Shown: positions 3,901 to 30,536 of the stretch, piece after piece | Layout: every line of letters starts with the position of its first letter | How positions within the stretch are numbered: the stretch's first letter is position 1 | Virus record (IMG/VR): IMGVR_UViG_3300047491_000704 | Location: 1-30,832 of that record | DNA: 30,832 nt | Direction: 5' to 3' (one strand) | Origin: a virus | Program-made: the position numbers and the translations under genes | The notes under the pieces: model-generated | Database searches by the model: none | What the model was told of the DNA's origin: nothing | Seen by the model: only the letters and a program-made list of their open reading frames with translations

Positions 3901-5031
3901 TTACTCTTTCGTGCGCTTAGCTTCTTGAATGTAGTTAGCTACGCGGGTATAGTCTCCCATACGGAAGGCTTCGAAGATTGCAGCCGGAGCCTGATACTGA
4001 TTAAGCATACCCTCGATTACCTGCCGGTCGTGTGCAGAAAGAGAATTCTCATTCACAGCACTCTCATAAGTTTCCTGTCGGGCGCGGGTCACGTCTAGTT
4101 CAATCCCTTCCTTCTTTACGCTGTAGTTCTTATTTCTTTTCTTACCGAACATCTTTGACTTCGCAATAAGTCTGCGGAAACGTTTTGCATGTTTTGCCAA
4201 CCATTTACCTGCTTTCTTACGAGCAAGCTTAGCTTTACCGGTAAGTACCTTCTTTACATGGCCTGCGATTCTTTTCAGTTTCAAAGCACCTGATTTCAGA
4301 CGTTTTACAACAGTTTTTGCTTTAACCCATGCTTCGTTAATAGGAACACCGTTTCCAATCTGGCCGATGATATCCATGTAGGACTCAGTTAGATAACCTT
4401 CCGGGTTTTGTAGAATTCCGTTAATATCAATCGAAAGGGAAATCTCACCATCCCCGATACTTTCAAATACGACATCTTCCATATCATCCGCGTAGGATTC
4501 CAAGAAAAATTCATATAGATCAGAGTTAATAAACTCTTCTGCAGCTTCCTGTAGCTCTTCCTCGGTTGCCCCTTCTTTGGAGATATTGACGATAAGCATT
4601 TCGTCGTCTTCATCAATATCAGCAGTTACGAAAGCGCCGGTTTCGGGCAACTCTTCACCATCAATTACATTTGCCCAGTCGTCAGCAGCTTCTATTAGGG
4701 TTACTGTGGGCATTTCATTCTCTTCCCACAGGTCATGCAGCATTTTAGCGTCAGCAATAAACTCCTCTTCGCTGATTTCTTCTGCATCTTCGTCAATCTC
4801 AACTTCTTCCATGACTTCTTCTTCTTCGACTTCCTCTTCTTTTTCTACTTTCTTTTCCACGGGCTTTTTCTTACCCTTCTTTTTGGCTTCAGAAAGCTCC
4901 TCGGCTTCTTCTACAAAATCTTCTTCCTCGGATTCATTAACAAGAAGTACCTTTTCCTCCTCATTAGCGAGGGCAGTTTGCGTTTTTTGTGCTTCCGACA
5001 GAATACGGAAGATACTAGATTTTTCACTCAC
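3901..5031 (-). CDS. Charge-segregated head-core/internal protein with a basic segment
   Basis: A 376-residue protein with a striking charge split. Residues 24-190 are very acidic. Residues 234-318 are strongly basic (about one residue in three is Lys or Arg, e.g. KRFRRLIAKSKMFGKKRNK). Sites matching the T4 prohead-protease consensus (I/L)xE| lie at ILSE13|A, LSE48|A and INE233|A. The last falls exactly at the acid-to-basic boundary, so cleavage would free a DNA-binding-like basic piece. The C-terminal 45 residues are similar to those of the 123-residue neighbour. T4 core and internal proteins are the nearest functional analogy. The start is a GTG with AGGAGGACTCTACC upstream. A terminator follows the gene. 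Confidence 0.6.
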   Translation of the reverse strand: MSEKSSIFRILSEAQKTQTALANEEEKVLLVNESEEEDFVEEAEELSEAKKKGKKKPVEKKVEKEEEVEEEEVMEEVEIDEDAEEISEEEFIADAKMLHDLWEENEMPTVTLIEAADDWANVIDGEELPETGAFVTADIDEDDEMLIVNISKEGATEEELQEAAEEFINSDLYEFFLESYADDMEDVVFESIGDGEISLSIDINGILQNPEGYLTESYMDIIGQIGNGVPINEAWVKAKTVVKRLKSGALKLKRIAGHVKKVLTGKAKLARKKAGKWLAKHAKRFRRLIAKSKMFGKKRNKNYSVKKEGIELDVTRARQETYESAVNENSLSAHDRQVIEGMLNQYQAPAAIFEAFRMGDYTRVANYIQEAKRTKE

Positions 5032-6634: not shown

Positions 6635-8029
6635 TTAGGAAGCAGTGATGGTACCCTTCACGTACATGTAGGGGTTCAGCATTTTCTTGCCGTAGGCAGT
6701 GGCGAAGCCTCTGCGACCAACAAAATCTTCGGTCATTAGGAACTGAGTAGCGAAGATTGGGAGGTACGGGGCGTATACATAACCCGCATCGAGGAACATA
6801 TCACCCTTATAACCTACGAGGTATGCGCTGTCGGCATAGTAGGGGTTCTTATAAACCTTCCACTTACCATCAATCACACCGATGTAGCAGGGGCCGTTCT
6901 GACGCCCGCTAGTTGCAGGCTGGAAGCGCGGCATACCAAAGCTTTCGATGATGTTAGCAGCATCCCGACCGCAGACAATGAAATTACCAGACGCACGCTG
7001 AGTGGACATGTAAATTTTGTTACTGCACTCTACAAGGTGATCTAGGAAGTTCAGCTTATGGTCATAGGCGGAAATTTCGGTTGAGGCAGGGGTCTTATCC
7101 CAACTTGCGGTATTACCAGCCTGCACGTACAGATCGTTCATGATTTCGCCATCAATTTCATGCAGGATTTCACTGGTCACTGCTTCAAGAAGAGCGAGGT
7201 CAATGTCAATACCGTAAGCCATTTTCACGTCATAACCAGCGGAGAAGGCATAAAGAGCCTTTAGACGGCGGTTCTGAGCGCGGATGATAGTTTCATCAAC
7301 CTTGAAGGTAACTTCGGGTACGACAGAGGGGCCGAATTCCTGATTGTACTGATAAGTAGCAACTACGTCTGCGCTAGTTTCACTGTTGAAAGTGATCGAG
7401 AAAGCGCCAGTAGAGTAGTTAAGAGTACCAGTAACGCCAGTAGCAGCAAGCGTGGCAGTACCATCGCCAGCATCAGTTTCTACCAGAGTGGTATTCCCAC
7501 AAGAAATTTCTACCGAACCTGCAACTACAGGGGTGTAGGCAAGGTTACCAGTGTAGCTCGTAGCGCCATCGGTACCAAGCATTTCTTCCTCAATAGTTTC
7601 CGAGGAGTAGTTGTACTTGTTGGCAGCGCCCGTGACGGGGTCAAACATTAGGCTGTTCTTTACGATGTTGCCTTTCTGTGAGCCGAACAGATACTTCAGG
7701 TAGAAAACCTGACCAACTTTCTGCTGCATGGGCTGAACGCTTACCAGTTCCTCAGCGATAAGATTCGGCATTACTGCAGTAATCATGTCGAAGACGTACT
7801 TGGTGAACGGGCCTACATCACTAGACTGAGTGGCTTCATTCAGACGCATAAAGCGATTAATTTCATTCTGGGTATTTTCCAGCAGGATAGCGAGACGTAG
7901 ACGCTGATCAACCGGAAGTTCACCCTTCACGGCTTCCGCAGCTTCCAGCTTGCTCCCCCAGTTCTCCATTAGGCGACCCGAAAAGTCCGAGCCATAAATT
8001 TCAGTTAGAGTCATGCCAGACTTATACAT
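6635..8029 (-). CDS. Major capsid protein, T4 gp23 family
   Basis: A 464-residue precursor of the capsid shell. Alignment by eye with T4 gp23 is clear around AVMPNLIAEELVSVQPM and KVGQVFYLKYLFG, which match the gp23 segment containing IPNLIAFDICGVQPM. I place the start at the ATG at 8029, which has GGAGG seven bases upstream; an in-frame ATG at 8044 lacks that spacing. With this start, the sequence LNE65|A66 falls at the same residue number as the gp21 cut in T4 gp23, so residues 1-65 are a propeptide. Residues about 165-230 form a Gly/Thr-rich insertion (SVEIS..., GTLNYSTGAFSITFNS) seen in many gp23 relatives. The upstream gene ends at 8044. Confidence 0.9.
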   Translation of the reverse strand: MYKSGMTLTEIYGSDFSGRLMENWGSKLEAAEAVKGELPVDQRLRLAILLENTQNEINRFMRLNEATQSSDVGPFTKYVFDMITAVMPNLIAEELVSVQPMQQKVGQVFYLKYLFGSQKGNIVKNSLMFDPVTGAANKYNYSSETIEEEMLGTDGATSYTGNLAYTPVVAGSVEISCGNTTLVETDAGDGTATLAATGVTGTLNYSTGAFSITFNSETSADVVATYQYNQEFGPSVVPEVTFKVDETIIRAQNRRLKALYAFSAGYDVKMAYGIDIDLALLEAVTSEILHEIDGEIMNDLYVQAGNTASWDKTPASTEISAYDHKLNFLDHLVECSNKIYMSTQRASGNFIVCGRDAANIIESFGMPRFQPATSGRQNGPCYIGVIDGKWKVYKNPYYADSAYLVGYKGDMFLDAGYVYAPYLPIFATQFLMTEDFVGRRGFATAYGKKMLNPYMYVKGTITAS

Positions 8030-8043
8030 GATAGATTCCTCCA

Positions 8044-9492
8044 TTATTTGCGGATATTTTTCAAGAGACTAATTGCAACGGATTCTTCTTGTGCAATATT
8101 TTTCTCTTCTGTAATGGCTTTCACCGAAGTCTTCCGCTCTACTAGCGAGGTTGACCCCGGCACCCTAGCCTTTAGTTTTGCGACAACTACATCAAAATCT
8201 TCTTTGGTAAACCCCTCGGGAAGTAGCTTCTCGACTTCATTTAGTGGAAGGGCAAATGCATTTACGATAGATTCTTTAAGTAGTTTCGCATAGTTTTCTG
8301 CACGAAGACGTTGTGTACTAATTTCCTCGTACAATGTGTCCATACGTTCATCAAGGCGTTTTGCTTCCTGCATAACCTTGCTGGTTTGTGCTTCTTTTTT
8401 CTCAAGAAGCGCAAATGTCGAAAGATAATCAGCACTTATCCGAGTGCTTTTTGTCTGTACTTCAGACAGTTCATGACGCAATTCCGACACTTCCTGTTCT
8501 TTTTCTTCGACAATCTCCTGCGATTCATTCACAGTTTCACGAGCGCTGGATAGTTGCAGAGAAACATCAGCAACAGCATCCATTAAGAAATAGGTACGTT
8601 CCGAGATGTCAGACAAGTCTTGCTCTATACAACGACGAAGCCGACGTTCTAACTCAAGGTCAGAAGAAGTGTCCCTCCCTTCGCTAAGTCGGAAAATTTC
8701 GTCTTTTAGAGACTTGATTTGCTGGTGCGCTTCCTCAAGGAGTGAAGTGACTCCATCACGCACATTACCGGCAACAACCCTTTCCTGCACTTCGGTAATA
8801 ATATCCGAAAAATACTCACTATCAGCGTAACGCAGAACATTCTCGACTATCTGGAGTTGGCTTGCGTCATACCCTCCAAGACCCTCGGAAATCGCCTTTA
8901 GCAAATTCGGATGGTTAATAAATTCTTGTGCTTCGTTAATTAGTTGAATACTTTCATCCACTACAGAGAGACGGCTACTCTTGAAGGAGGGGCAGGGTAC
9001 AAAATCATACGTAAAAAATACGTAATCGCTTTCATTCACTCGCTCCTTTTCTCCTTCCTTTACTGTAGTACCGGCACCGCGAGAAGAGATTCCTATTGTA
9101 CTGCCATACTCAACTAACGTATTAATGACTCTTCCTGCCGGGGTATCTAAAATATCTGCCGTACCGTAAATAACACCTTCCTTAAATTGAAGACTCGTAA
9201 TACAGTGACTTACTTCTGGTAAGTAAATTTCAAAACGGTTCGCGGGGTGACTCGCTTCCCCAAAGAGAGTCTTATTAGCTAACATTTCTTTCGTATAGGA
9301 AGACTCTACAATTTTCTTTTTTAACAAGTCCGATGAATATAGCCGTTTATTTCTGTTATCGTCTTTAGAGACAGAATCGGCTACGGAGAATACCCCTTTC
9401 ACAGTACGGAGTACACCGCTTCTCTGTGAAGGCTCTGCTCCCTCGACAATCTCAAGACGGGTATGGTGAATTTCATTTATTTGTTGTTTCAT
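8044..9492 (-). CDS. Prohead protease fused to a scaffold-like coiled coil
   Basis: A 482-residue fusion. Residues 1-175 match the T4 gp21 prohead protease family: the catalytic His lies in FGEASHP (H82), the catalytic Ser in GISSRG (S136 or S137), and VPCPSFKSSRLS ends the domain. T4 gp21 has His85 and Ser140, so spacing agrees. The remaining 300 residues are helical, with long charged coiled coil at about 245-400, as expected of a core scaffold (the role of the separate T4 gp22). Likely self-cut sites are INE7|I and LINE187|A, the latter between protease and scaffold. The protein ends in SLLKNIRK. Ribosome site GGGGGAGTTGATAC precedes the ATG. Confidence 0.85.
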   Translation of the reverse strand: MKQQINEIHHTRLEIVEGAEPSQRSGVLRTVKGVFSVADSVSKDDNRNKRLYSSDLLKKKIVESSYTKEMLANKTLFGEASHPANRFEIYLPEVSHCITSLQFKEGVIYGTADILDTPAGRVINTLVEYGSTIGISSRGAGTTVKEGEKERVNESDYVFFTYDFVPCPSFKSSRLSVVDESIQLINEAQEFINHPNLLKAISEGLGGYDASQLQIVENVLRYADSEYFSDIITEVQERVVAGNVRDGVTSLLEEAHQQIKSLKDEIFRLSEGRDTSSDLELERRLRRCIEQDLSDISERTYFLMDAVADVSLQLSSARETVNESQEIVEEKEQEVSELRHELSEVQTKSTRISADYLSTFALLEKKEAQTSKVMQEAKRLDERMDTLYEEISTQRLRAENYAKLLKESIVNAFALPLNEVEKLLPEGFTKEDFDVVVAKLKARVPGSTSLVERKTSVKAITEEKNIAQEESVAISLLKNIRK

Positions 9493-13142: not shown

Positions 13143-13195
13143 TTGTTACACTCCCGCTATCTAGTATACTCATATGCCTGCAGTATGTCTATACC

Positions 13196-13624
13196 CTAAG
13201 AAGGGATATTGACAGATTTTTCAAAGTGGAGTACTTCACGCTCACGCTTTAACATCTCTTCAGCAAGCGCAAAGGTAGGAACGTCATAATTTCCGCCAGA
13301 GACGCTGCTGATAAATGTTACCCGTTTAGGGGAAATAGAGAAATACGTACCTAGAGCATGGAACGTAAAGGTAAAATCAAGCGTACAGGTATACTTACTC
13401 TCCATATTATATGAGAGGGAAAGTACAGTTTGACTTTTTTCAACTCTCGCATTGTTAGCCATGCGAGGGATATCTAGTAAACGATCACGTAGCTCTAAGT
13501 ATGAAGCCCCCGAGATTGACCCTGTAGTAGTTTCCCCTGTCACTAGTACATCATTAATCTGTACTTCAGAGAGTAGATAGCCTGCGTCTTCTAGTAAATC
13601 CATAAGAACGGAAATTGTATACAT
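13196..13624 (-). CDS. Small unknown protein of the MoxR-VWA block
   Basis: A 142-residue protein I do not recognise. It begins with a helix (MYTISVLMDLLEDAGYLL), continues with alternating strands rich in Ser and Thr (TTTGSISGASYLELRDRL, FTFTFHALGTYFSI) and ends with a basic helix (AEEMLKREREVLHFEKS). Two conserved-looking Gly-rich turns hint at a beta sandwich. It has an excellent ribosome site (GGAGGATTTCTCTA) and sits between the ATPase and the HExxH gene, which suggests an accessory or substrate protein. Confidence 0.6.
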   Translation of the reverse strand: MYTISVLMDLLEDAGYLLSEVQINDVLVTGETTTGSISGASYLELRDRLLDIPRMANNARVEKSQTVLSLSYNMESKYTCTLDFTFTFHALGTYFSISPKRVTFISSVSGGNYDVPTFALAEEMLKREREVLHFEKSVNIPS

Positions 13625-13649
13625 TAGAGAAATCCTCCAAAGAGTGGGA

Positions 13650-13671
13650 GGGGAGGGGTAGTACCCTCCCC
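13650..13671 (-). terminator. GC-rich hairpin after the ATPase gene
   Basis: GGGGAGGG (13650-13657) and CCCTCCCC (13664-13671) form an 8-base stem with a 6-base loop, in the 56-base spacer between the ATPase stop and the next start. No T-run follows on the minus strand, so full termination is unlikely; pausing, attenuation or mRNA processing fits better. The stem is the same as at 3837-3872. Confidence 0.45.
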
Positions 13672-13680
13672 CTGTTTAAG

Positions 13681-16600
13681 TTAAGCGTTAACATCTAGTA
13701 ACAGAGATTTACGCTTCTTCTGGGTACCGGCTTTACGTACCCCTGATTTAATATCCGTTTCAATCTGCAGTACTTTTTGCACGGCATCACTAATCTCAGT
13801 ATCAGACGAAACGCCAGCGGCTACTAGAACTTCCTTCGCAAACGCAATGTCCCCTGCCTCTGCACCTTTTAGGAGTGCGTCGAAGGATTCTGCGGTAAAT
13901 TCTCGCAACAGTGCCGTTTTCGGAGTCGCTGTTCCGATATTACCGCTACCGATAATGGTATACTGCAGAGACTTAACTACCCATTCTCGGTAGTGTTCAC
14001 GAGAGATTTTCCCGTTTCCTTCCGCGAATGCAATAAAAGCACCGGTTTCCTGCAATATAATATTACGGCGAACTACGCTGTCTGCTTGATTCTGCGTTAC
14101 TTGTTTCAAGTACTTAGAAATATTCGTGATATCTACGCATTCCGGGATTGTCAGAAGATGTTCGTCTCTCCCGCTCTTGGGATTGTAGAATTCACAGAAC
14201 ATCTTTGCCGCTTCATCCCCGATAAGGTTGCCGATCTCTTTTTGGCGGTTATTTTTAATCTGTGTTTCCAGAGAAGACATACCTCCGATAAGTTTGGAGA
14301 GGTACTGCATTAAAGTATCTCTAACTTGACTTTCGGGTGCATTCTGGGATTTTACCCATGTCATATCCACAAAGAGCCGGTCGTATGCCAACTTAAAGAG
14401 CGAAACAATTTCTGTCGCAGATTTTCGTGTACCGATATCAATAGTGTTAGATTCCGACATAATTCCTGCCCAGTTTTCAAGGAAAGGAATTATTTGATCG
14501 CAGTACGCTTTAAGTTTCATGCCGGAAGTCGCAAATGACGCCCCGCGAGTAATTTCAATCTGCCACTTATCCCGTAAATCTTGGGTATCGGGGTCTTCGA
14601 AAAGCATTGCGCCATGAAGAACCGGAAATACTTTTGCATTACTTGTCAGATACCGCGACAACTCGTTAATAGAGCGCATGGAGGGGCATCCCCGGTCTAC
14701 CGTGCGTTCTTCAACCTTAGAGATTGCCTCGATAAGCTTCCCCTTGGTAGACATGTCCTTTAACCATTCCAGTACCAAGGGAGAGAAGTAATCCTCATCC
14801 TTCGGACCCTTTTTAATGCATTTGTCGAAGTACTCTAACATGCCTTCCACGTCACTCTGTTCATAGTGGTCACGTCGAAGGATACAGAAACGTGCTGCGA
14901 ACGCCGGGTCTAATTCCTCAGCCTGTTTGTACGCAGAGCCTACGTTACATGCCCCTACTACCGTCACTCGGTCTTTTTCACTTGAGAAATTAATACCGAA
15001 AATACGATAGTCAGAAATAGCCTCGAATACTGCAGACATCAGAATGGGGTTACAGCGGTTCATTTCGTCAAAGAATAGGATAATACGCTGCCCCGGAATA
15101 TTTAAAGCCTCTTGCAACTGAATCCCGTAACGAGTACGAGGAGCGCGAACGGTAGTTTGCGGAGGTAGATCACACTCTGTAACTAGCCGTGCAAGGGCAT
15201 CCGCGAGGTTTGATTTTACTCCCGCAGACTTCGCCATTTCTTTTTCTTGCTCAGGATTTTCGGGGGTATTTGTTGACGATACTGGAACGTCAACAAATTC
15301 ATAGCCGTCAAGCTGGAGATTATCAGGAGTAATCTCCGAGCCATCTGGATTGAATTTGGGCATTCTCCCTCTTCCCGGACCTGTACGGCGTAGTACCTTT
15401 TTCGTAGCTACTGCAGAAGGTGCTAACACACGGCTTAACACAGCTTCGTCTGAATTTTTGTCTACCGGGATATTCTGCAATAGTTCCATGTGAGGGCCAG
15501 CAATAAACTGTGCTGTAGAAACGCCTGCTAACGCCCCCATAATATCAGTACGGTCTAACTGAGACAGGTTAATAGAAATCATCGTAGTCCGATTTTTCGG
15601 ATTGCGACAGAAATTCTTAATACGGGTAGTTTTACCTAAAGACGAAGGGCCTACGAGTAGTGTAGGAACTCCTGCCTTCATATTAGCTTCTACTAAAGAG
15701 TCCAGTTGGTTTTTACGCGGAGCTTCGGCAACCTTCCATCCACGAGAGGTGAGGAATTCGCTAAACTGCTTTCCGCACTTAATACCCACTAATCCGTAGA
15801 TGGTATCCAAGTTTGCAGTAAGTTTTTCCCCCTCTGCTGTATCATCTTCTACACGGTACATATACCGAGAAATCATTTCCCATGTACGGAAGTTCGGGAA
15901 GGGGTTTGTTGAAAGATCGTCTTTTTCCCCGTTATCTTTATACTTCTGTAACACTTCGCTGAAATCGTAAGCATTCTCCGAAAATTCACTTCCGGGAACG
16001 GGATTTTGCATTAAAAATTCCAGCGTTAGGCGATGGAGATTTGCAGGGCGACGGGCATCCACGGATTTAAGATCGCCTATTTTCGTCTCTTCCATAGGTG
16101 CGGTGAATTCCCCTGCGTAGGAAATTTCCCCGCTTGAAGATTCCCATAGAATTTGTTCTTTGTTATTGGAGACAATCTGGAATTGAATTTTTTCTCCCGG
16201 CTTAAGAGTTACTGTTTCAGGAGACAGTGTAAATGCCGGGTCGTTCCCTCCGCTAATCGTTGGGAAATTAATAGGCTTTTCGGACACTGCGATACGTGCA
16301 AAAGCTAATCGTCCTGAAGCGCTTTTCGCCGTGACAGTGATAAATCCGGCAGCGTTTTTCTTTGCCCATTTTCCCCATGATTTTTTGAAGTCATCAGGAG
16401 TTACGCGCAGAGGAATGAAGCGGTCATTGAAGGCTACGTCATCCATCTGTTCCCCAATATAAGCTTCTGCCATACCCGGCTCTTCTTCATACTCAACAGG
16501 GTAGTTAGCAGCACAGATAATTCTCGCCTTGGTCATTTTCTTACTAGAAAATTCTTTCTGGTCGAGGATTTGGAGCATAGCCTGTCGGATAGGTTTGTCA

Positions 16601-17739
16601 GAACGGGCAATTTCATCAAGGAACAGAATGGGCGGCTTGGCTTTTTCCGCGTAGTTATCCCGGATATTCTGAAGTTGGTTACGAGTTTCCGGGTCTAGGG
16701 AAGTATCCGCTAAACTTTCATCAAGGATAGGGATAGCCCGTTCACAGAGCTTAATATAGTCATCGGTACATTCCAGAATACGCTGATTTAGAGCTTGGTA
16801 GGAAAGAACGGTCGCATCCTTAAGAACGGAGATGTCTTGCGCATTTTTCCCGGTAGTTGACATTAAGCGTAAAGCTTCATCTACCGGAAGTGAGCGAGAC
16901 AGCCCTTCGAAGTCAAGGCGCGACATAAACCCTACGCGCATATCTACGAGACGGTACCCGTGTCTTTTACAGAGGTCTTTTACCATTGCCGACTTAGCTA
17001 CTGCCGTCATACCTAACATGAGCGGTACTTTTTTCATCGGAGGGTTTGCGCGAATGTAAGAATCCAAGGTTTCTTCAATCGCGCCCATCCCCAGCTCCCC
17101 TGTTGCAGAACCGGGGGCTTTAAGGGTAGTGTTCACATCGTCAAGGTTAAAATCTGCATCCTCAAAAAGACGTTTAATCATAGCCGGGTACGAAATCCCT
17201 TCTGAGAGTGTGTAGTCTCCCAACGTTCCCGCAAAAAGTCCCTGTGGTGCGAGTGTAACTTTCTTCGGGTTGACTATCGGTGTAATGTCGATAGCATATT
17301 TTACATCAACATCCGCGATTTGTCTATTAGTTGCGAGATTTATTAGGTCAGCGGTAACAATTTCTTCTCTCGCCATCCCGTTCCCTTCCGGGAGGAAGGC
17401 ATAGAATTTTCCATCTTGCGCCGTTCCAGTGGTAATTCTACGTGCTACTGGAACGTAATCTACGTCGTAGATTGTACAGGTGACAGGCTCGGGCTGATTA
17501 CGGTAGAAGACAATACGAGCAATAGAAGCATCCATGACATAGATATCTAGCGGCAATACGTGATAGACACGTGGCTTAGAGTTTACGAGATACTCAGCCT
17601 GTATTGCCATCCCTCGTAGAATTTCCTGCTCATCCCCTACGTATGCAGGCAGGTAAATTTGAGTCATATCCAAACTTTCCACCCGCATAGCATTCCACGG
17701 TGCCTGTTTTAAAAACGGTAAAATACTATCATAATACAT
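13681..17739 (-). CDS. Double AAA+ MoxR-type ATPase with Ig-like insertion
   Basis: A 1352-residue protein with two AAA+ modules. Module 1: P-loop GMTAVAKS at 243-250 (degenerate, Ala for the last Gly), Walker B ILFLDE at 371-376, sensor Asn412, candidate arginine finger R440 (FNDRF). Residues 465-550 are an Ig-like/Big domain (ITVTAKSASG, then TVTLKPGEKIQFQI) before the second module. Module 2: intact P-loop GPSSLGKT at 697-704, Walker B ILFFDE at 887-892, sensor Asn932, and Arg950 in DPAFAARF, with a 130-residue insertion between P-loop and Walker B. The DEIxR/DEMNR pattern and neighbours mark the MoxR class, which partners VWA proteins. The N-terminal 220 residues are unassigned. The start is an ATG 17 bases after GGAG, unusually far; a 13-codon overlapping frame starts at 17750 with better spacing. 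Confidence 0.85.
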   Translation of the reverse strand: MYYDSILPFLKQAPWNAMRVESLDMTQIYLPAYVGDEQEILRGMAIQAEYLVNSKPRVYHVLPLDIYVMDASIARIVFYRNQPEPVTCTIYDVDYVPVARRITTGTAQDGKFYAFLPEGNGMAREEIVTADLINLATNRQIADVDVKYAIDITPIVNPKKVTLAPQGLFAGTLGDYTLSEGISYPAMIKRLFEDADFNLDDVNTTLKAPGSATGELGMGAIEETLDSYIRANPPMKKVPLMLGMTAVAKSAMVKDLCKRHGYRLVDMRVGFMSRLDFEGLSRSLPVDEALRLMSTTGKNAQDISVLKDATVLSYQALNQRILECTDDYIKLCERAIPILDESLADTSLDPETRNQLQNIRDNYAEKAKPPILFLDEIARSDKPIRQAMLQILDQKEFSSKKMTKARIICAANYPVEYEEEPGMAEAYIGEQMDDVAFNDRFIPLRVTPDDFKKSWGKWAKKNAAGFITVTAKSASGRLAFARIAVSEKPINFPTISGGNDPAFTLSPETVTLKPGEKIQFQIVSNNKEQILWESSSGEISYAGEFTAPMEETKIGDLKSVDARRPANLHRLTLEFLMQNPVPGSEFSENAYDFSEVLQKYKDNGEKDDLSTNPFPNFRTWEMISRYMYRVEDDTAEGEKLTANLDTIYGLVGIKCGKQFSEFLTSRGWKVAEAPRKNQLDSLVEANMKAGVPTLLVGPSSLGKTTRIKNFCRNPKNRTTMISINLSQLDRTDIMGALAGVSTAQFIAGPHMELLQNIPVDKNSDEAVLSRVLAPSAVATKKVLRRTGPGRGRMPKFNPDGSEITPDNLQLDGYEFVDVPVSSTNTPENPEQEKEMAKSAGVKSNLADALARLVTECDLPPQTTVRAPRTRYGIQLQEALNIPGQRIILFFDEMNRCNPILMSAVFEAISDYRIFGINFSSEKDRVTVVGACNVGSAYKQAEELDPAFAARFCILRRDHYEQSDVEGMLEYFDKCIKKGPKDEDYFSPLVLEWLKDMSTKGKLIEAISKVEERTVDRGCPSMRSINELSRYLTSNAKVFPVLHGAMLFEDPDTQDLRDKWQIEITRGASFATSGMKLKAYCDQIIPFLENWAGIMSESNTIDIGTRKSATEIVSLFKLAYDRLFVDMTWVKSQNAPESQVRDTLMQYLSKLIGGMSSLETQIKNNRQKEIGNLIGDEAAKMFCEFYNPKSGRDEHLLTIPECVDITNISKYLKQVTQNQADSVVRRNIILQETGAFIAFAEGNGKISREHYREWVVKSLQYTIIGSGNIGTATPKTALLREFTAESFDALLKGAEAGDIAFAKEVLVAAGVSSDTEISDAVQKVLQIETDIKSGVRKAGTQKKRKSLLLDVNA

Positions 17740-21379: not shown

Positions 21380-22021
21380 TTACGTACCAGTATTTTGTAT
21401 ATAGTTTTTGGAGTCCTCTTCTACCTCATCGTCAAACCAGCGACCCTTTTGTAAATCGCGAGTAATAGAATCCAAGTAAGAATCCCACCGGCTAAAAATA
21501 GCAAGCATGTGTTTGCAAAGTGCCCCGCGTTGTTGGGGGTTTCGTATTTTAGGCTTTCGCGTCTCTTTTCGCAACCCCCATCCGCCTTTCCATCCTATAT
21601 ACTTATATCCCCAATAGAGATGCGCCGGGCAAGAACACCAGATACCAACATCATCGTTCTTTACTCGATCACGCAGGGTTTTCTTATTCTTCTTCCCGTA
21701 TTTCCTTAATTCCCCTAAGTGTACCAGCTTGATTTTCTCAATATAAAAACGCCCCTTAATTGTGGCAGACTCCGTTCGGAAGATAATTTCTCCGCTTTTT
21801 GATAATCCAAGGTATTTAATGTATTTAACCTGTTTCCACCGTTCTTTGACATTGAGAAAGTTATCGTGTGTCTTTGCTACGAGGTACTTCACCGTGACCT
21901 CATGGATAGGGACAAACGGTGAAGTACCTCGGGTTACGGGTTTACGAGGAAGGGGGAGTGTGTTAGTCGTTGCTTCTGAAATAGGCAGCAAAGTGCTTTG
22001 TGAGATAGGAATGAATATCAT
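21380..22021 (-). CDS. SWIM zinc-finger-like protein, likely virion component
   Basis: A 213-residue protein. Its ends carry the SWIM signature CxC...CxH: CSC at 129-131 in WCSCPAHLYWGYKYI, and CKH at 169-171 in GALCKHMLAIFSRW, with a basic 35-residue spacer. SWIM motifs bind zinc and often DNA or proteins; phages with T4-like heads often carry such genes near the portal. The ATG at 22021 has GAGG nine bases upstream and is preferred to an in-frame GTG at 22036. With that start, ISE16|A is a good prohead-protease site and would remove a short propeptide. The gene overlaps the previous one by 59 bases. An unusual 16-base perfect inverted repeat lies inside its coding region. Confidence 0.65.
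   Translation of the reverse strand: MIFIPISQSTLLPISEATTNTLPLPRKPVTRGTSPFVPIHEVTVKYLVAKTHDNFLNVKERWKQVKYIKYLGLSKSGEIIFRTESATIKGRFYIEKIKLVHLGELRKYGKKNKKTLRDRVKNDDVGIWCSCPAHLYWGYKYIGWKGGWGLRKETRKPKIRNPQQRGALCKHMLAIFSRWDSYLDSITRDLQKGRWFDDEVEEDSKNYIQNTGT
21880..21931. repeat. 16-base perfect inverted repeat inside the SWIM-like gene
   Basis: CGAGGTACTTCACCGT (21880-21895) and ACGGTGAAGTACCTCG (21916-21931) are exact reverse complements separated by 20 bases. The repeat lies within codons near residues 30-48 of the SWIM-like protein. Such a long perfect palindrome in coding DNA is unlikely by chance. Confidence 0.9.
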
Positions 22022-22436
22022 GTGGCGTTTCCTCACCTGTTAAAAATCTCGCCGTTAGCTTTGCCATTTCAGCTATATAGAGGGGGTAGTAAGCTCCTTC
22101 TCCCTTATTCTCCATCTCGATAAGCGCGTGAGTTACATAAGAGGAGAGGAGTTTTGCAACAGTAATATCCGGGAGTACTTCCCCCTCAACAATTTTCCGT
22201 AAGTTTTTCGCAAAGGGCTTTTCCCGCATTTCATATAAAAAGGATTCGCAGAGAGGGGTGGGGTGTATTTCCTCCTCATTGGAGAGGGGTGCTTCTCCCT
22301 CTCCAATGCTTTCTTCGAGACTCACCGTTTTCCATACCTCTTGAATCTGCATCCGCAATCCATCCGCCTCACTCACTTTCCCGGCAGACTCCGCTTCAAA
22401 CAGCTTTTCGTAAAGTTCATCAATATTATAGGACAT
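21963..22436 (-). CDS. Small acidic protein next to the portal, unknown
   Basis: A 157-residue protein. Residues 1-40 form a helix pair (NIDELYEKLFEAESAGK); residues 40-60 are an acidic linker (EESIGEGEAPLSNEEE); the rest is helical and ends TKHFAAYFRSND. It overlaps the portal stop by 11 bases and the SWIM-like start by 59 bases, with GGAGATAGTAGCG as ribosome site, so the three genes are probably co-translated. A portal-associated or core protein is possible. A 12-base perfect inverted repeat (22277-22308) falls in the acidic linker. Confidence 0.55.
   Translation of the reverse strand: MSYNIDELYEKLFEAESAGKVSEADGLRMQIQEVWKTVSLEESIGEGEAPLSNEEEIHPTPLCESFLYEMREKPFAKNLRKIVEGEVLPDITVAKLLSSYVTHALIEMENKGEGAYYPLYIAEMAKLTARFLTGEETPHDIHSYLTKHFAAYFRSND
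22277..22308. repeat. 12-base perfect inverted repeat inside a coding region
   Basis: CATTGGAGAGGG (22277-22288) and CCCTCTCCAATG (22297-22308) pair perfectly around an 8-base loop within the 157-residue gene. It is followed on the minus strand by AGGAGGAAATAC, which resembles a ribosome site without a nearby start codon. Confidence 0.85.
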
Positions 22437-24210
22437 CGCTACTATCTCCTTTCCCCTGTCTGATTAATTTATGGAGTAATGCTTCTTGTGTCATTTCTTC
22501 TTCAGGAGGGGTATCCGCCTTTTCTCCCGGCTTTAGTTTGAATTTATCGTAGTCTACTCCTAGAAGGTCGAAAATGTATTCGACAAGGCGTTCTTTATTC
22601 ACCTTATTTAGCGCCCCTTCCAAATTCGAAAGAATATTAACGATAGAATCTGCAGCAGCGGCCTTGTTTGCAATATCAGCTACACGGTCGGTTTCCTCTG
22701 CGTCGTTAATTCGAGTCATGGTAATTGTGAATTTGCCGATAGCGTCTGATTTCCCCTGCGTTGTTAAATAGTAGTCGCAAAGTTCCCCCACTCCGTTTTT
22801 TAGACAGGTGACAATACGTTTGACAGTACGGGCATACCGGATATCTAAACGGGTAAGTGAGGTATTACCAATTCCGCCCGTACCCTGATCTTCTGCCCCG
22901 AGGAAAGCGCGGGGTACGTGTAATGCGCCGAAAAGTTTATTTAGGAAATTATCAAAGTCTACCATCTGCCGTACATCTACATTTCCCCCAATTTCCTGCA
23001 CCTGTACATCACCTTTACCGTTTCGTACAGGAAGTACTACAAAGTCTGCAATAGGGACAGGGTTGTTATCAGAACGATAGTACCCCGACTGAGGGTTGAA
23101 CGTTTCCTTAGACTTTAAGGCATTCTTAACTTCCTTGAGCATACGGATGGTTTCAGCGCGGTCAGCACTCCCGACATTAACAGAAACTAGCCGGATAAGG
23201 GCACTGCGAGAAATACGAGAGAGGACAAGGACATCCTCTAGTAGGCGTACAATTTGCCATGCCTGTACCGCCCCTTCGATATAAGAAGTGCCGTATTTTA
23301 CTTTGAACTTGCGCTTAATTTCTTTTTCACCATTTTTATCTTTAATCGGGAGTTCGATAGTTTCCCGGTTACCGCCGCGATCACTCATAAAGTGGATGAA
23401 ATCTTCAGGTCGGTAAAGGGTACCCTCGGCTTTTTTTGTCGAAGAAGTTTTTCCCGGCTTCGTAGTGTCTTCATAATACCCTACAGTTTTCCCGTAAAGC
23501 GTAATATGGTACACTTTCTCTGGAGAATCTACTTCCTCGAAAACTTTTCCCTTCTCTAACTTTAGTCCTACCATCTCGGAAGCTTCGTTTAAGGACATAA
23601 ACTGGCTGTCCTCACTCACAATACCTGCGGATTCTGCTTTTGTAGAAGGCTTTTCCTTCTCTTTTCCTTTACCAGACAGTGCTTTTACAGTTGCCGTGGA
23701 AGGGGAAGCTGGTTTGGGAGAGCCGTCATCTGTAATTTGTTTTTTACCAGCATTACTCTGTGTCTGTTCTATAAAATCCGAATGGAAGGTGCGAAGGTAC
23801 ATCTCACCATACAGGATTATCTGATAAGCCCAGTTCCAAACACGAGAATCAATATCGACAATATTATGTAGGAATTCGTTGAGTTCCTTCTTTAAATTTT
23901 CATCGTCGGACTCAACCCATACAATTTTTTGTTCCTGCATATCAAACTGTGTAGCATCGTCAGCAATAAGTTCCATTGCAGAGGCTACAACACTGTCCTT
24001 TGCCATTACACGGTACTGCTCGAATTTTTTAAGTCGGGTACTTTCAACATTACGGACAAGGTTGAGGAATTCCCATAATTTACCGGCTTCCTTCAGGTCG
24101 GTAAAAATATCTTCTAACATGCCTAGTCGCTTCTGTTCGAAGTTTTCCTCTTCGCCGGAAGGGGCATCTTTCTTTTTACGTGCTTCTGTTATCCAGTCAA
24201 ACCATCCCAT
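22426..24210 (-). CDS. Portal protein, T4 gp20-like
   Basis: A 594-residue portal, the ring through which DNA enters the head. The segments EQYRVMAKDSVVASAMELIADD and NWAYQIILYGEMYLRTF match gp20-type portals, and LGAEDQGTGG together with TSLTRLDIRYARTVKRI correspond to the gp20 wing/crown region. T4 gp20 is 524 residues; the extra length is a linker of low complexity at about 145-200 (PKPASPSTATVKALSGKGKE). A candidate protease site lies at ITE9|A. The start has GAGGAAATAAATT as ribosome site and the gene follows the terminase by 38 bases. Confidence 0.85.
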   Translation of the reverse strand: MGWFDWITEARKKKDAPSGEEENFEQKRLGMLEDIFTDLKEAGKLWEFLNLVRNVESTRLKKFEQYRVMAKDSVVASAMELIADDATQFDMQEQKIVWVESDDENLKKELNEFLHNIVDIDSRVWNWAYQIILYGEMYLRTFHSDFIEQTQSNAGKKQITDDGSPKPASPSTATVKALSGKGKEKEKPSTKAESAGIVSEDSQFMSLNEASEMVGLKLEKGKVFEEVDSPEKVYHITLYGKTVGYYEDTTKPGKTSSTKKAEGTLYRPEDFIHFMSDRGGNRETIELPIKDKNGEKEIKRKFKVKYGTSYIEGAVQAWQIVRLLEDVLVLSRISRSALIRLVSVNVGSADRAETIRMLKEVKNALKSKETFNPQSGYYRSDNNPVPIADFVVLPVRNGKGDVQVQEIGGNVDVRQMVDFDNFLNKLFGALHVPRAFLGAEDQGTGGIGNTSLTRLDIRYARTVKRIVTCLKNGVGELCDYYLTTQGKSDAIGKFTITMTRINDAEETDRVADIANKAAAADSIVNILSNLEGALNKVNKERLVEYIFDLLGVDYDKFKLKPGEKADTPPEEEMTQEALLHKLIRQGKGDSSDVL

Positions 24211-24248: not shown

Positions 24249-26165
24249 TTATTCGTTACTCATAAGCCAAGAAACCGGGAAAAACTCATCGTCGTCAGAA
24301 AAGGAGTCATTATTTGCCTCTACAAAAGCGGCAATTCCCTCTGTAGTAGAAATCGCATCCGCAAGAGGGCTTTGAAGGGCATTATAGACAGCCCCCGCCA
24401 CCGCGTCTGCCACGTCTTTAGAAGATTGAGGGGGGTGGTCTACTTTTCTTTTCTCCCGGTCATGGATTAATTGAAAGAGTTCTTCTTTATATGGGCTATA
24501 GTCATATTGAATAATGCGTTCTTCATAATACAGATTTGTTAACGCAAGATAGGCTTGGTCGGTACGGTCAACGGACTGGAATTTACAGGAAATTTCGGCC
24601 TCTTGAAGAACCTGAACGCTTTCTTGCGAACCAAATGTATCATAGCTAATATGTCCTATCTGTAGCTTAAACCTATCCCGCAAATAGAACACGAAATCCC
24701 GTACTTTAGAAATAGAAATTTTCTTTGGGGAACGCGGAGGGGGAATACGTAACATAAAATCAATTGCAATAACTGGCTTTTGTATCCCGTCAACTACACG
24801 TACTTCTGAGACATGACAACACGCAATACCGGTGTTATCCCGGCTAGTGGATTGGTCGATATGCAGGTATCGCTTTTTTTCCGGGTTAATAAAAGTAAAT
24901 CCCGGCTTAATGTAACGGTCAAGGGTTATATCCTCCCCCGTAGATATGGTAATTTCGTTTTTTGTAAAGGGGTGCTGTAATCCCAAGCTCTCCCCTTCCC
25001 GACAAGACGCAGTAAATAGGGGGCGAGAAGAAAAAAGTCTTCCTAAAGGAGCAATAGAAACACCCGCGATATTTTGCAATGCTGTTAATAAATCAGCATC
25101 AAATGACGGGCGAAAATCTTCTGGGATAGAAACGAACATCTGCCTATGTTCAGGGGGGAGTTTATCCACCGCTAACGGAATAGTTACATAATCAGGGTCA
25201 TATAAAGGAAGTCCTACAGAAGAGCAGTAATGGTTAATATCTTCAACATTTTCCACAATAAAGGGGTCTAGGGTGTCGCTTCCCGTACAAACATAAAATT
25301 TCTTTGTAGAGTAAGTCCCCTTCGGCTTCACTTGCCAAAGTTTTGTTTGGATATATTTTACTCCGGGGTCTGTAAGGGCGAGTTTTTTACGACGCTCCGT
25401 AAAGGAATTTGCGTGTGTGGAAGAAGACACTAGGATAGAAAGGGAGGAATTTACCCCGTTACGCATAAAACGGCTTTGAGCGCGCTGAATAATATTAGCG
25501 TATACAGACGCTACGCGGGAATATTCGGGGATAGCCGCGTTAGCGTCTGTACTCTCCCCGCCAAAGAAGTTTGCTTCGTCTAGGACAGCGCCAATAACAG
25601 ACATACCAATTGCATGACTGGCGTTTGAACCGTGAATAAGTAGGAGTTTTTCAGTAGGCCATACTAGAATTGACGAAAAGTTCTTATCCCGGCTAAATTC
25701 TTTTTGGAAGTACGGAGAGCTATCAATCAATTCTCGCATTTCCCCATACCCTGTTCTCTCCGCTTGTATCTTTGTCAAGGAAAAATAGAGAAATACGAGT
25801 TTCGTTTTACACATTAACCCAAACATTGCAGGGATGTTTGTAAAGCAAGATAACTCGTATATTTTACGTAGCAGCATTAACTCAGCAACCGAGCTTTTAC
25901 CTGTTCCGATAGCTCCATCAATAATTACTTCATGGTATTTGTTCTGGTACTCAAAAATATCGGCAAGTTCATCTTTCCAGTAGTCGTAAATTCGTGCGTA
26001 GTCAGGCCCGACATAATACTCAGACTCTAGCCATTTTTTAATAGGGACAATCTCTCGTACTTGTCGGGAGTCTAGCAATTCTTTTTGAATATCAGTCGCA
26101 CTACCGAAAATATCTCTTAATATCTTTCGCTCTTCGGGTGTTAAATCGTCAAAAATATCTGCCAT
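24249..26165 (-). CDS. terL: Terminase large subunit
   Basis: A 638-residue DNA-packaging motor. The ATPase has P-loop GAIGTGKS at 84-91 and Walker B VIGAVLDEAN at about 190-199. The nuclease domain shows the three expected Asp sites: YLHIDQSTSRDNTG (about 426-440), HISYDTFGS, and DVADAVAGAVYNAL near the end. This is the T4 gp17-like arrangement. The start has AAGGAAGATTT upstream and follows the modular gene by 9 bases. No small subunit gene is visible in the window. Confidence 0.93.
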   Translation of the reverse strand: MADIFDDLTPEERKILRDIFGSATDIQKELLDSRQVREIVPIKKWLESEYYVGPDYARIYDYWKDELADIFEYQNKYHEVIIDGAIGTGKSSVAELMLLRKIYELSCFTNIPAMFGLMCKTKLVFLYFSLTKIQAERTGYGEMRELIDSSPYFQKEFSRDKNFSSILVWPTEKLLLIHGSNASHAIGMSVIGAVLDEANFFGGESTDANAAIPEYSRVASVYANIIQRAQSRFMRNGVNSSLSILVSSSTHANSFTERRKKLALTDPGVKYIQTKLWQVKPKGTYSTKKFYVCTGSDTLDPFIVENVEDINHYCSSVGLPLYDPDYVTIPLAVDKLPPEHRQMFVSIPEDFRPSFDADLLTALQNIAGVSIAPLGRLFSSRPLFTASCREGESLGLQHPFTKNEITISTGEDITLDRYIKPGFTFINPEKKRYLHIDQSTSRDNTGIACCHVSEVRVVDGIQKPVIAIDFMLRIPPPRSPKKISISKVRDFVFYLRDRFKLQIGHISYDTFGSQESVQVLQEAEISCKFQSVDRTDQAYLALTNLYYEERIIQYDYSPYKEELFQLIHDREKRKVDHPPQSSKDVADAVAGAVYNALQSPLADAISTTEGIAAFVEANNDSFSDDDEFFPVSWLMSNE

Positions 26166-26174: not shown

Positions 26175-27650
26175 TTAGTCACTTTCTATGAGTGACTGTA
26201 AATAGTATAGCGCATTTACAAGTTCTTCGTTTTGTGCGTTAGAGGGGTAGATATTCTCCTTAATAAGTTCTGTCATATCATAGTAAATGATCACTTTTAG
26301 TTTACCGTTTTCAAGAGATAAATCCCCTCCTATTCTACCTGCCATATCTAAGAATTCATCGACATCCCCGAAGCGTCTGACAGATTCAATAAGGTATTGA
26401 ATGTCAATTTTACTCTTAATAATATCATTTTCTATTTGAGCAGTAATACGGGTAGTTCTCCCCTTCCCTTTATTTTTATCTGCAATATACACTTTGTAAT
26501 AGTTAGGGATAAAAGAGACTTTTAACGTCGTATTATCTACTTGAACATCTTCGACTACCAACTCGCCGTCATACCACATCCCGGTATTGTTATTAGTTGC
26601 TCGAAGGGGGTATTTACCGGTATTTTTCTTTAAGCTCTGTTCTACATACTGCCGCCACGCCTCTGCTACCCCTCCGTGAGCTTCTTCTAAGGGATGGGTA
26701 GCTTCGTTTACATCAGTCGGATAGAGATTATTTGTGATGTAGTACCGCATATCGACAACTTTACTCTCTCCGTAGTTTTGATACTTTCCCTTCTCCCCGA
26801 CTTTTAGTTTTTTCGGAAGGGGGAGTTGGTTTATGTGCGCTTGAAGTCTATCATCAAGGAACTGGCTCGTCATACGATTACCAAATATATAATAAGATGT
26901 TTTAAAGGGTATTTTTGTACCGTCTATGTGAGAGACTATATAAAAATCATCGCTTAATGCAAGGGTGATTTGTGCCTTAGAATTTCCTAACACATCAATA
27001 GACTTAATATAAACATCCCCTACAGCACGTTCTGCAGGCCCCCCGCCACTTCGAATTAAAATATCGAGGTGCTGACGAAACGTAGACTGTATTTTTTGGC
27101 GGAAGTAGCGAACCCAAGCCTCAAGGACCCCTCCCCTAGCCTCGGAGAGAAGGTACCTTAAAGACTCATTAACGTTTTCCGGGTAGGTGTTATGTTTTAA
27201 TTCTCGATAAATTTTCGCACGGTATTTGACAATAATCTGCCCACTTATCTCTTCGACATTAGATACATATAGTGTAGGAGATACCTTAGCTAACACACCT
27301 GTACCTTGCTCTTCATATTCTCTTATCAGGTAATAGAGAATACTGGTAGAAGCAGGACGGTCTACGAAGTCGTCCTCTCCGAAGTATTTACGGGTACTTC
27401 TCGTTTGATAGCGCCCGACAAGCGCGACAGAGAATTCTAATTCTCCCGCACGCACGGCAACGTCCCCTGTAAACATAAGAACTCCGTTAAATTTTACCAT
27501 CGTATCGGCACTGCGTATGTTCATCGTATAGTCAATAGGGAGACGCTGAACGTGTTGTTTGAAAAGACTTTTATAATAGGCTATCCACGCCTCTTCTACC
27601 CCACCTCTCGCTTCGGTAAGTGTATTTTGGCTATTGTTTGTAATATCCAT
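26175..27650 (-). CDS. Three-module protein with internal prohead-protease sites
   Basis: A 491-residue protein made of three modules of 153-168 residues. Each begins just after LTE13|A, LSE170|A or LEE323|A with A(R/H)GGVxEAW followed by an amphipathic helix, continues with beta-rich sequence, and ends with (N/H)xYPxxxxE. The E|A sites match the T4 prohead-protease consensus (I/L)xE|, and T4 internal proteins carry just such a cut after their targeting peptide. The protein may therefore be a polyprotein giving three head-internal proteins. The tail NALYYLQSLIESD resembles the sequence before each cut. The modules match those of the next gene upstream. GGAGGAATACAGA is the ribosome site. Confidence 0.75.
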   Translation of the reverse strand: MDITNNSQNTLTEARGGVEEAWIAYYKSLFKQHVQRLPIDYTMNIRSADTMVKFNGVLMFTGDVAVRAGELEFSVALVGRYQTRSTRKYFGEDDFVDRPASTSILYYLIREYEEQGTGVLAKVSPTLYVSNVEEISGQIIVKYRAKIYRELKHNTYPENVNESLRYLLSEARGGVLEAWVRYFRQKIQSTFRQHLDILIRSGGGPAERAVGDVYIKSIDVLGNSKAQITLALSDDFYIVSHIDGTKIPFKTSYYIFGNRMTSQFLDDRLQAHINQLPLPKKLKVGEKGKYQNYGESKVVDMRYYITNNLYPTDVNEATHPLEEAHGGVAEAWRQYVEQSLKKNTGKYPLRATNNNTGMWYDGELVVEDVQVDNTTLKVSFIPNYYKVYIADKNKGKGRTTRITAQIENDIIKSKIDIQYLIESVRRFGDVDEFLDMAGRIGGDLSLENGKLKVIIYYDMTELIKENIYPSNAQNEELVNALYYLQSLIESD

Positions 27651-27680
27651 TTCTGTATTCCTCCGGGGATGGGTAGTTTT

Positions 27681-30536
27681 TTAGAGTAAATCTATAAGAG
27701 ATTTTAGGTACAGAAAAGCTTCTGAACTCTCGCTCATTCCCGCAGGGTAATGATTGTACTCAATAAAATTCGTAATATCAATATCTAGGTAGACAAAATG
27801 ACCCGTTTTATCAGTACCGCCGATATCAACATATGACATAGATTTATCAATACCGTAAAAACCTAACTTTTTTAGGAGAGTGTATTTAACTATAGAGTCC
27901 CCCCTACAGAGTGACGTATTATATAAAACATCGGCTATTTCAGCATCTACTTTTTTCTTTTGTTTTACATAGGTGCGGAGATCGTAACATAGAACTTCGT
28001 TTTTTGTAAAACTAAAATTAATATGTATTTTAGTTTTTTTACCATACTGGAAAACATTAACACTGCTATAGTAAAGCTCCCCTGTAATTTCTTCTCTCGC
28101 GGTTCTTTCCTCGAAAGGAATCTTCATATCTTCAATTTCCCTTTCTATAGTCTTTCTCCACGCTTCTGCCACCCCACCTCTCGCTTCGGTAAGAAGTGAT
28201 TTTAAGAAGAGGGTATCACCAGCACCCTCACTTACTCCGGGAGGGTATATGTTTTTTTCAAGTAAAGTGTCAATGGTATAGCGAATATAAATTGCATCGT
28301 CTCGACCGTCATGGATAGCCTCTTGAAGAATAGCCCGAGGAAATTTTACGGTATTTTTTAGTTTGCGATTTACCTCTATTAATATTTGTTCCCCTAGTAA
28401 GCTTGCGGCGTCATATTTAGCCATGTAAATATCAAATTCTTCTAGTTTTTTACCGGCCATTTCAGGAGATACTGTACCGTCAAAAGAAAATTTTACAGAT
28501 AAATCAGTATAATCTTCTTTAACTGTCAATAGCACTTCACTAAAAGCATACTCTCCCTTTACAAATATTTTTTCCCCGTTTCTTATCGTTGAGAAAGCAA
28601 CCGGATATTTCATTTTACTGGCTTTTGTTGTAATATAACTTTTCCATGCTTCCGCTACTCCCCCTTTAGCTTCTGTCAGGAGAGACTTTAAGAAGATGGT
28701 ATCATCCACACTCTCATTTACGCCGGAAGGGTAGATATTATTCTTAACTACGTAAGTTATAGGAATTGACACCGTGCCTACCGTATCGGGATTCTTCGAC
28801 TTAACTAAGTCGCGTTTTTTTGAAAAAACTATCGCGGGGTAATTCAACCCTTTTTCTCTTCCCGGTTCTACAAGAGGGTCTACTAACGGCAAATCGTTTA
28901 TGGCTTTTTGAATATAAACACCATCAATATTCGCAATATATTCTTTCAAGACATCATCTCTTTTAACCCTTCCCTTTTCTTTCACATCACCTTCAAAATA
29001 CACATCAAAAAAAACAAACATACTCCCCTGACTAGTTGTGTAAATACGGGTGCTTTCTAAATCGGCCTTTACAACGCCTTTCCAAGAAAAACCTTCTCTA
29101 TGGTTATAATTTAGGGTAACGCTATAGTTTTTCAAGCTTTTACGAACGGTATTAAGCCACGCTTCCGCCACCCCACCCTTTGCCTCAGTAAGAAGTGACT
29201 TTAAGAAGAGGACATCACCAGCACCCTCAGTTACGCCGGGAGGAAATATGCGATTGTTTGCTAAATCGCCTAGACCAGTGAAACGAGCATTCATAAATAT
29301 TTTACCATTCTCTATACGAAGGGTAAAGTAATGTGAGGGGGCATACTCTGTATTTGGAAAATTCTGTGTTAGATACTTAGATAATGAGAAGGGATTTTTC
29401 TCACTATTTGTTCCAGCTTTATCCCAAAATAATCTGCAGATGTCTTTAATATCTTTCTCTGGCAATGCGTTCAAATCTACAATTACGCCTTTCCTCCCGT
29501 CTTCTCGGGTCTGTCTACACCGCAACTCTCCCGAGAAGGTATACTCGAAAGATACCCCTGAATACGTATTTGAATGACTCCTATCCATCCCCTCTTCCGG
29601 GAGACGTTTTGAAAATGTAAACGTACCATCTAGGAAAAAGGTCTTCTTAACAGATTTATTCAAACTATCACTTTCAAAACGCTGATCAGTAGAGAAATCA
29701 ACAGAGTACTTAAATGAGTTCCACTCTTTCTCACAAAAATTTTGAACAAAGGTTGCCCATACTTCCCATGCATCACCCTTTGCCTCTACTAAACTCCCTT
29801 CAGAAAGAATATCCTTTGCGCTTGTAGGGGGAATCGTTAGCTTAACAACAGGAATTTCAATATACAGCACAATCGTAGGGTTCCAGTTGATATAAGAACT
29901 ACTCGTATACCATGCAAAACGCCCCGTCGTATAGTCATATCCGCCACGTTGTAAAGCCATGAGGAAATCTTGAAGGATGGGATGTTCTCTAAGTACGGGT
30001 TTTAGTGCCATCTCAATCTCTTTGTCGGTAGCCGTTTGAGGATTAACAGCATTTACTCCAAGCCCAATTCCTACAAGGACTTGCCCCTTATTTCCATACA
30101 CACCCGTCTGTTCAAACTCTGCTTTGTTGTCATTAAAGCTAACAATATCTTTATCTGATAACGGCTTGAGTTCTTTTTTCCACGCTTGCCATACTTTATA
30201 CGGGATAGTAGAATGCTTTGCGTCAAATCGAGTTGCCTTAGCTTTCCCATACCCGTAGATGCGTTTGGTGGCCGAGATATAATCCGCTGCCTCTTTTCGC
30301 CACTCTTTCTCTGTAGCAGCATCCCACTCTTCCCGATCTTCTTCAGCTTCACGCTCTTTATATGTCACGTAGGCGTCAATATACTTTTTCTCAGCGGCTG
30401 CGTCACCTTGCGCTGCCCGAGTACGCATATCCTGTACTTCACGCGCAGATGTATGGTCTAAATAACGGGAAGTGTAGGAATCAATAGAGTTAAGTTCTTT
30501 TTCAGTAATTAATCGTTCAAAAATAGCACGTCGCAT
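27681..30536 (-). CDS. Large modular protein, four LxE-bounded repeats; likely head polyprotein
   Basis: A 951-residue protein. Residues 1-250 are unique; residue 12 already follows LITE|K, an N-terminal site like those of T4 internal proteins. Four modules of 162-200 residues begin after LVE251|A, LTE451|A, LTE622|A and LTE784|A, with the signature FLKSLLTEA(K/R)GGVAEAW in three of them. Each ends with YPxGVxE, then a charged linker and the next FLKSLLTE. Nucleotide identity between the last copies is visibly high (28161-28250 against 29161-29250), pointing to recent duplication. It ends FLYLKSLIDLL. Start chosen at 30536 because AGAGGTGG precedes it; the longer frame to 30608 would begin in the leader hairpin. 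Transcribed just before the three-module gene. Confidence 0.8.
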   Translation of the reverse strand: MRRAIFERLITEKELNSIDSYTSRYLDHTSAREVQDMRTRAAQGDAAAEKKYIDAYVTYKEREAEEDREEWDAATEKEWRKEAADYISATKRIYGYGKAKATRFDAKHSTIPYKVWQAWKKELKPLSDKDIVSFNDNKAEFEQTGVYGNKGQVLVGIGLGVNAVNPQTATDKEIEMALKPVLREHPILQDFLMALQRGGYDYTTGRFAWYTSSSYINWNPTIVLYIEIPVVKLTIPPTSAKDILSEGSLVEAKGDAWEVWATFVQNFCEKEWNSFKYSVDFSTDQRFESDSLNKSVKKTFFLDGTFTFSKRLPEEGMDRSHSNTYSGVSFEYTFSGELRCRQTREDGRKGVIVDLNALPEKDIKDICRLFWDKAGTNSEKNPFSLSKYLTQNFPNTEYAPSHYFTLRIENGKIFMNARFTGLGDLANNRIFPPGVTEGAGDVLFLKSLLTEAKGGVAEAWLNTVRKSLKNYSVTLNYNHREGFSWKGVVKADLESTRIYTTSQGSMFVFFDVYFEGDVKEKGRVKRDDVLKEYIANIDGVYIQKAINDLPLVDPLVEPGREKGLNYPAIVFSKKRDLVKSKNPDTVGTVSIPITYVVKNNIYPSGVNESVDDTIFLKSLLTEAKGGVAEAWKSYITTKASKMKYPVAFSTIRNGEKIFVKGEYAFSEVLLTVKEDYTDLSVKFSFDGTVSPEMAGKKLEEFDIYMAKYDAASLLGEQILIEVNRKLKNTVKFPRAILQEAIHDGRDDAIYIRYTIDTLLEKNIYPPGVSEGAGDTLFLKSLLTEARGGVAEAWRKTIEREIEDMKIPFEERTAREEITGELYYSSVNVFQYGKKTKIHINFSFTKNEVLCYDLRTYVKQKKKVDAEIADVLYNTSLCRGDSIVKYTLLKKLGFYGIDKSMSYVDIGGTDKTGHFVYLDIDITNFIEYNHYPAGMSESSEAFLYLKSLIDLL

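Follow-up and report, generated by a model that had tools for sequence, protein, structure and literature searches.

The window analysed here, a virus record of 30,832 bases (IMGVR_UViG_3300047491_000704) whose plausible genes are all on the minus strand, contains two adjacent genes for proteins, here called A and B, that are built largely from seven modules of one kind. Protein A (951 amino acids, 27681..30536) starts at an ATG that follows AGAGGTGG, a Shine-Dalgarno-like sequence, and protein B (491 amino acids, 26175..27650) has a Shine-Dalgarno-like sequence of its own, with GGAGG upstream; a first-pass annotation of this DNA had placed both proteins correctly. A consists of an N-terminal region of 251 amino acids, A0 (MRRAIFERLITEKEL..., ending in ...ILSE|GSLVE|A; 29784..30536), followed by the modules A1 (200 amino acids after LVE|A, 29184..29783), A2 (171 after LTE|A, 28671..29183), A3 (162 after LTE|A, 28185..28670) and A4 (167 after LTE|A, 27684..28184). 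In B, a leader of 13 amino acids (MDITNNSQNTLTE|A, 27612..27650), which ends in a protease-type site, precedes B1 (157 after the leader's LTE|A, 27141..27611), B2 (153 after LSE|A, 26682..27140) and B3 (168 after LEE|A, 26178..26681). The measured lengths agree with the annotation, which had described seven modules, four plus three, of 153-200 residues, and a search with a module profile recovers exactly these seven copies, four of them in A and three in B, and nothing else convincing in the window. A0 was considered as an eighth, diverged module on account of its VWQAWKK(EL) pattern and an order of elements (strands, helix, strands) that looks similar by eye; its score against the module hidden Markov model is -0.3, within shuffles, and module status is therefore not claimed for it.

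The boundaries were located solely by a downstream mark, G[GD]..E.W, which is found at exactly seven places, four in A and three in B (the end of the leader included). Every one of these follows L-x-E-A (LVEA, LTEA four times, LSEA and LEEA), just as the annotation had it when it let each module start right after LxE|A; at any single place, [LI]xEA would occur by chance with a probability of about 0.0007. In protease terms, P3, P1 and P1' are invariant and P2 varies between V, T, S and E. Across the aligned junctions the invariant residues are P, V, E, L, E, A, G, G, V, E, A and W; at the DNA level, a pattern for EA-x-GGV-x-EAW occurs six times against 0 expected. The junction peptide in A is unchanged despite 6-12 synonymous differences over 28 codons, and it is therefore held by selection on the protein, even as the cores diverge, rather than being a fresh copy. 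Glutamyl-alanyl cuts, with alanine following the glutamate, are known for T4-type prohead proteases. T4 gp21 cleaves after L/I-x-E (PMC9026906), and L/I-x-E with a following A stands at every one of the seven boundaries.

How closely the modules are related depends on which part is compared. At full length, most pairs give clear scores (z up to 24), whereas after trimming of the ends z exceeds 3 in just two of the 21 pairs, A4-B1 (5.4) and A1-A3 (3.5), and the cores of left-out modules score mostly near or within shuffles. Sequence conservation thus sits mainly at the ends, and the cores are almost unrelated; the description of the modules as homologous holds for the ends and for the full-length scores, but finds little backing in the cores, whose common descent would rest mainly on a shared predicted fold. 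A3 was modelled by AlphaFold2 with the seven-module alignment, and whole B with three alignment rows. The A3 model (predicted local distance difference test, pLDDT, 75; predicted template modelling score, pTM, 0.70) shows a helix, three strands, a long helix, two strands, a short helix, a linker and a tail helix, and the order alpha-beta-beta-beta-alpha-beta-beta-alpha is seen in the models of A3, B1 and B3 and mostly also in that of B2. The sites of B fall in low-confidence stretches of its model (1-16, 159-178 and 302-327). Compared with tail terminators, A3 reaches Z 7.5 (3.6 Å, 112 aligned; top VIA row, P74-26 neck) and B2 Z 6.2 (3.7 Å, 103 aligned; top VIA row, Milano neck), both tied with unrelated folds; the predicted fold is at most loosely tail-terminator-like. 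Foldseek searches of the Protein Data Bank (PDB) with A3 gave no match at E < 0.001; whole B gave two BFVD matches below 0.001, which at a TM of 0.08-0.17 are not meaningful.

The second conserved element lies at the other end of the modules. FLKSLLTEA is exact at three junctions, with an equivalent, RYLLSEA, at B1/B2 (the annotation had counted five modules with the element or an equivalent); equivalents also form the C-termini of A (YLKSLIDLL, the end of A4) and B (YLQSLIESD, the end of B3). Neither the B leader nor the A0/A1 or B2/B3 junction has the element. Because it is kept at both C-termini, where no module follows, we assign it to the module ends: as judged from the sequences, FLKSLLTE is the C-terminal tail of most modules and not the targeting peptide of the next. 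The proposed analogy with the T4 targeting peptide is consequently unsupported in detail. In T4, each mature internal protein (IP) comes with one N-terminal targeting peptide of 10-19 residues, and here only B1 has such a leader. Upstream of the tail every module has a second invariant glutamate (GVTE|G, GVNE|S, GVSE|G, GMSE|S, NVNE|S, DVNE|A, AQNE|E), in a context less canonical than L-x-E|A and mostly of the form [VM]xE|[SGA]; cutting there may remove the tail. Short C-termini similar to those of A and B are found in the products of 2607-3821 (ESLNYLKSIV), 5044-5415 (AQYLKSVMQ) and 8044-9492 (AISLLKNIRK). The pattern [FYLI]L[KQR][SN][LIV], which was picked after having been noticed, occurs at five of 25 C-termini in the window against 0.02 expected, and an unbiased all-against-all comparison of the window's C-termini showed no likeness beyond random; a shared prohead-core tag is possible, and we regard it as a lead only. 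The core-like neighbours 3901-5031 and 5044-5415, both on the minus strand, carry lysine-rich stretches and a common C-terminal segment (APAAIFEAFRMGDYTRVANYIQEAK and APAELHSALENGHYNIVAQYLKSVM, respectively).

By its sequence matches, the surrounding region is a T4-type head cluster of terminase, portal, protease/scaffold and capsid protein genes. A and B lie directly upstream of the gene for the terminase large subunit (24249..26165; phrog_2, 3.3e-7, and tblastn), which directly follows B. A T4-type portal (22426..24210; Pfam Portal_T4, 1.5e-44) with the N-terminus MGWFDWITE|A, a gp23-type major capsid protein (6635..8044; Gp23, 1.2e-65), whose best relatives are in SP-15, LIS04 and GXN1, phages of Firmicutes, and an acidic/basic core-like protein (3901..5031) are also encoded. 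The gene at 8044..9492 codes for a fusion of a gp21-type prohead protease with a long scaffold-like region (Peptidase_S77, 6.5e-12; phrog_207, 6.3e-36), and this product is presumed to be the enzyme that would cut A and B. In the capsid protein, RLNE70|A71 stands at the expected end of a propeptide (candidate cut at about 7834/7835), close to the 65 residues that T4 gp23 loses (PMC9026906); its glutamate is kept in the relatives compared, the next residue being A, T or S. Relative to shuffled expectation, [LI]xEA is in excess in A (5 vs 0.74) and B (3 vs 0.34) as well as in the portal (3 vs 0.50) and the core-like protein 3901-5031 (7 vs 0.86), out of which basic peptides may be cut at its seven sites; most tail, ATPase and other genes of the window have no comparable excess. 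Within the first 25 residues the motif is present in five of the 25 window proteins (0.47 expected, p 0.001), among them the portal, the core-like protein and B. In a 142-kb relative (L010), core-like and protease/scaffold proteins (12765-14228 and 8355-9911) are rich in the motifs NE|S and NE|A, which suggests that the protease of this lineage has shifted in its preference.

Module homologues were found neither in Pfam, PHROGs or the PDB nor in 50,697 phage records, IMG/VR and the bacterial genomes searched. A and B likewise have no Pfam or PHROG match, and none recurred among the single modules, so that by sequence they belong to no known family of core proteins. IMG/VR was searched with B, three A modules, the terminase, the capsid protein, the portal and the junction profile, and the bacterial genomes with the junction profile; none of these searches yielded a phage with the modules. 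Matches to the junction DNA pattern in two contigs lie in frames full of stops and are due to chance. The module profile had no match in LIS04, SP-15, GXN1 (parts) or the 142-kb IMG/VR relative (most of it), and no self-repeating protein was seen in the searched parts of these four.

Our favoured reading, at a probability of roughly 0.6, takes A and B for precursors of head proteins, which the phage's own protease would divide at every boundary into seven paralogous proteins of the head interior. Both proteins would enter the assembling prohead as precursor polyproteins, and the gp21-type protease would cut after each L-x-E, giving seven single-domain products with masses of about 17-23 kDa, or about 15-21 kDa should the tail also be trimmed at [VM]xE|[SGA], together with the A0 region and the 13-residue leader. 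The conserved ends (the GGVAEAW helix, NIYPxGVNE and the FLKSLL tail) would serve common steps of entry and processing, and the cores would have diverged toward separate roles. Cleavage, location in the virion and ejection are inferred here, and they are not equally secure. The cut itself is the most probable part: that a polyprotein is processed by the phage's own prohead protease, as the annotation had proposed, is well supported by the sequence, with sites at seven of seven boundaries, a protease from the expected family, a corresponding site in the capsid protein and linkers of low predicted order. Whether the released domains would then remain inside the head or be ejected from it is close to an even bet; a head-internal or injected role, likewise part of the earlier proposal, is plausible from the genome position and the type of site. 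The fullest version, a true polyprotein strategy in which seven paralogous effector or structural proteins destined for the head are made in fixed ratio from two precursors, travel into the prohead in precursor form, are freed only there by the maturation protease and share conserved C-terminal tails with other core proteins, we would put at somewhat less than even. Several observations weigh against the favoured reading. L/I-x-E sites are short and arise by chance, and the A3 core itself contains LQE|A (residue 737 of A); the modules, with isoelectric points of 5.0-9.0, are not uniformly basic as the T4 internal proteins are; and the model of whole B has a low overall confidence (pLDDT 56). 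No relative with the modules, in which conservation of the sites could be followed from phage to phage, turned up in the collections searched, and the reports consulted have prohead proteases removing propeptides or shredding core proteins rather than freeing folded tandem domains (PMC9026906, PMC10052503).

The same features should be weighed against other explanations, of which the most serious is that neither A nor B is cut and that both serve as structural proteins with tandem domains, in the neck, the collar or the capsid surface for instance, L-x-E-A being part of a conserved linker passed on by duplication. Tandem duplication accounts for common linkers without any protease, and the weak resemblance of A3 and B2 to tail-terminator and neck proteins (best Z 7.5 and 6.2) fits a role at the head-tail interface, although Z values below 8 may reflect a common arrangement only. 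A mere linker, however, hardly explains why L-x-E-A persists where the upstream linker is unconserved (behind the B leader and at the divergent A0/A1 junction), why P2 varies as it does in a protease site, or why the motif is enriched in the head-type proteins of the window, and we consider this explanation unlikely.

If cutting is granted, it could serve a different end. A and B could be prohead core (scaffold) proteins like T4 gp22, gp67 and gp68, cut for clearance of the core, the pieces leaving the virion; T4 core proteins are indeed cut into several fragments that are mostly removed (PMC9026906), and the core-like protein 3901-5031 with its seven sites provides a possible parallel in the same genome. 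Cuts at domain boundaries would, however, leave folded domains of 17-23 kDa, which we judge a poor fit for exit through pores of the shell; the modules are predicted alpha+beta domains rather than charged helical core proteins, and each boundary has a single canonical site, while just one clear extra site lies within a core. We consider this explanation more doubtful than that of uncut proteins. Least probable of all, in our opinion, is processing at the ends only, by which the B leader and A0 would be removed as propeptides and the mature proteins would be tandems of three and four modules. SPN3US usually loses N-terminal propeptides (13 of 14 sites; PMC10052503) and the short leader of B does end in LTE|A, yet the sites at the internal junctions are the same or better and their linkers equally low in order.

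Further genes of the window are recorded here as observations in their own right. The region 9687-17739, inside the head cluster, encodes a 1352-residue double AAA ATPase with distant relatives in Rhizobium phages, a 361-residue von-Willebrand-A-like protein (DNSGSMEASK) and a 462-residue protein carrying HELSHR. A 323-residue protein at 10783-11754 consists mostly of N/Q/P/G repeats (QNQQNPQNQQGQG), and the plus-strand reading frame overlying it (DSADSAD) is probably spurious. The product of 21380-22036 has a SWIM-type zinc-finger-like pattern (CSCPAHL...CKHM), and counterparts adjoin head genes in L010 and L012 (CECDDF...CKHQ and CSCPDF...CKHV). Among the neck genes, 1280-2053 codes for an apparent membrane-anchored GAF-domain protein (PF01590, 1.1e-4).

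Should the favoured reading be true, the capsid maturation protease of tailed phages can be put to work on a polyprotein, much as happens in eukaryotic viruses, several paralogues would be made in equal amounts with their release dependent on prohead assembly, and A and B would represent a natural multi-cargo precursor for the loading of proteins into phage heads. They would also define a new head-protein family in which the ends are conserved while the cores diverge freely, as is expected of proteins in conflict with host defences. The working principle, T4-type prohead proteolysis, is already known; for its putative use on a precursor of tandem paralogues we found no description in tailed phages (in mostly open-access literature). 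IPI-IPIII and Alt of T4 are small head proteins that a gp21-type protease frees inside the prohead by cutting after L/I-x-E, in sets that differ greatly between phages (PMC9026906), and the modules would be released at sites of this type. Each of the T4 proteins has its own gene and a single N-terminal capsid-targeting peptide, whereas the modules form seven paralogous domains of two precursors, most of them with FLKSLL or an equivalent as a C-terminal tail. A and B resemble gp22, gp67 and gp68 in having several L/I-x-E sites in one polypeptide, but those proteins are shredded and mostly removed, whereas the canonical sites here border related domains that are predicted to fold. Diverged paralogous inner head proteins, some of them cut by the prohead protease, also constitute the paralogue families A and B of phiKZ and SPN3US (PMC5694885); these come from separate genes with N-terminal propeptides and A-x-E or S-x-E sites, and no polyprotein has been described among them (PMC5694885, PMC10052503). 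Also comparable are the polyvalent proteins of phages, multi-domain proteins that are delivered with the phage DNA and were likened by their authors to polyproteins (PMC5512222); theirs are unrelated enzymatic domains with embedded peptidases (PMC5512222), while A and B would combine one repeated domain with a separate prohead protease.

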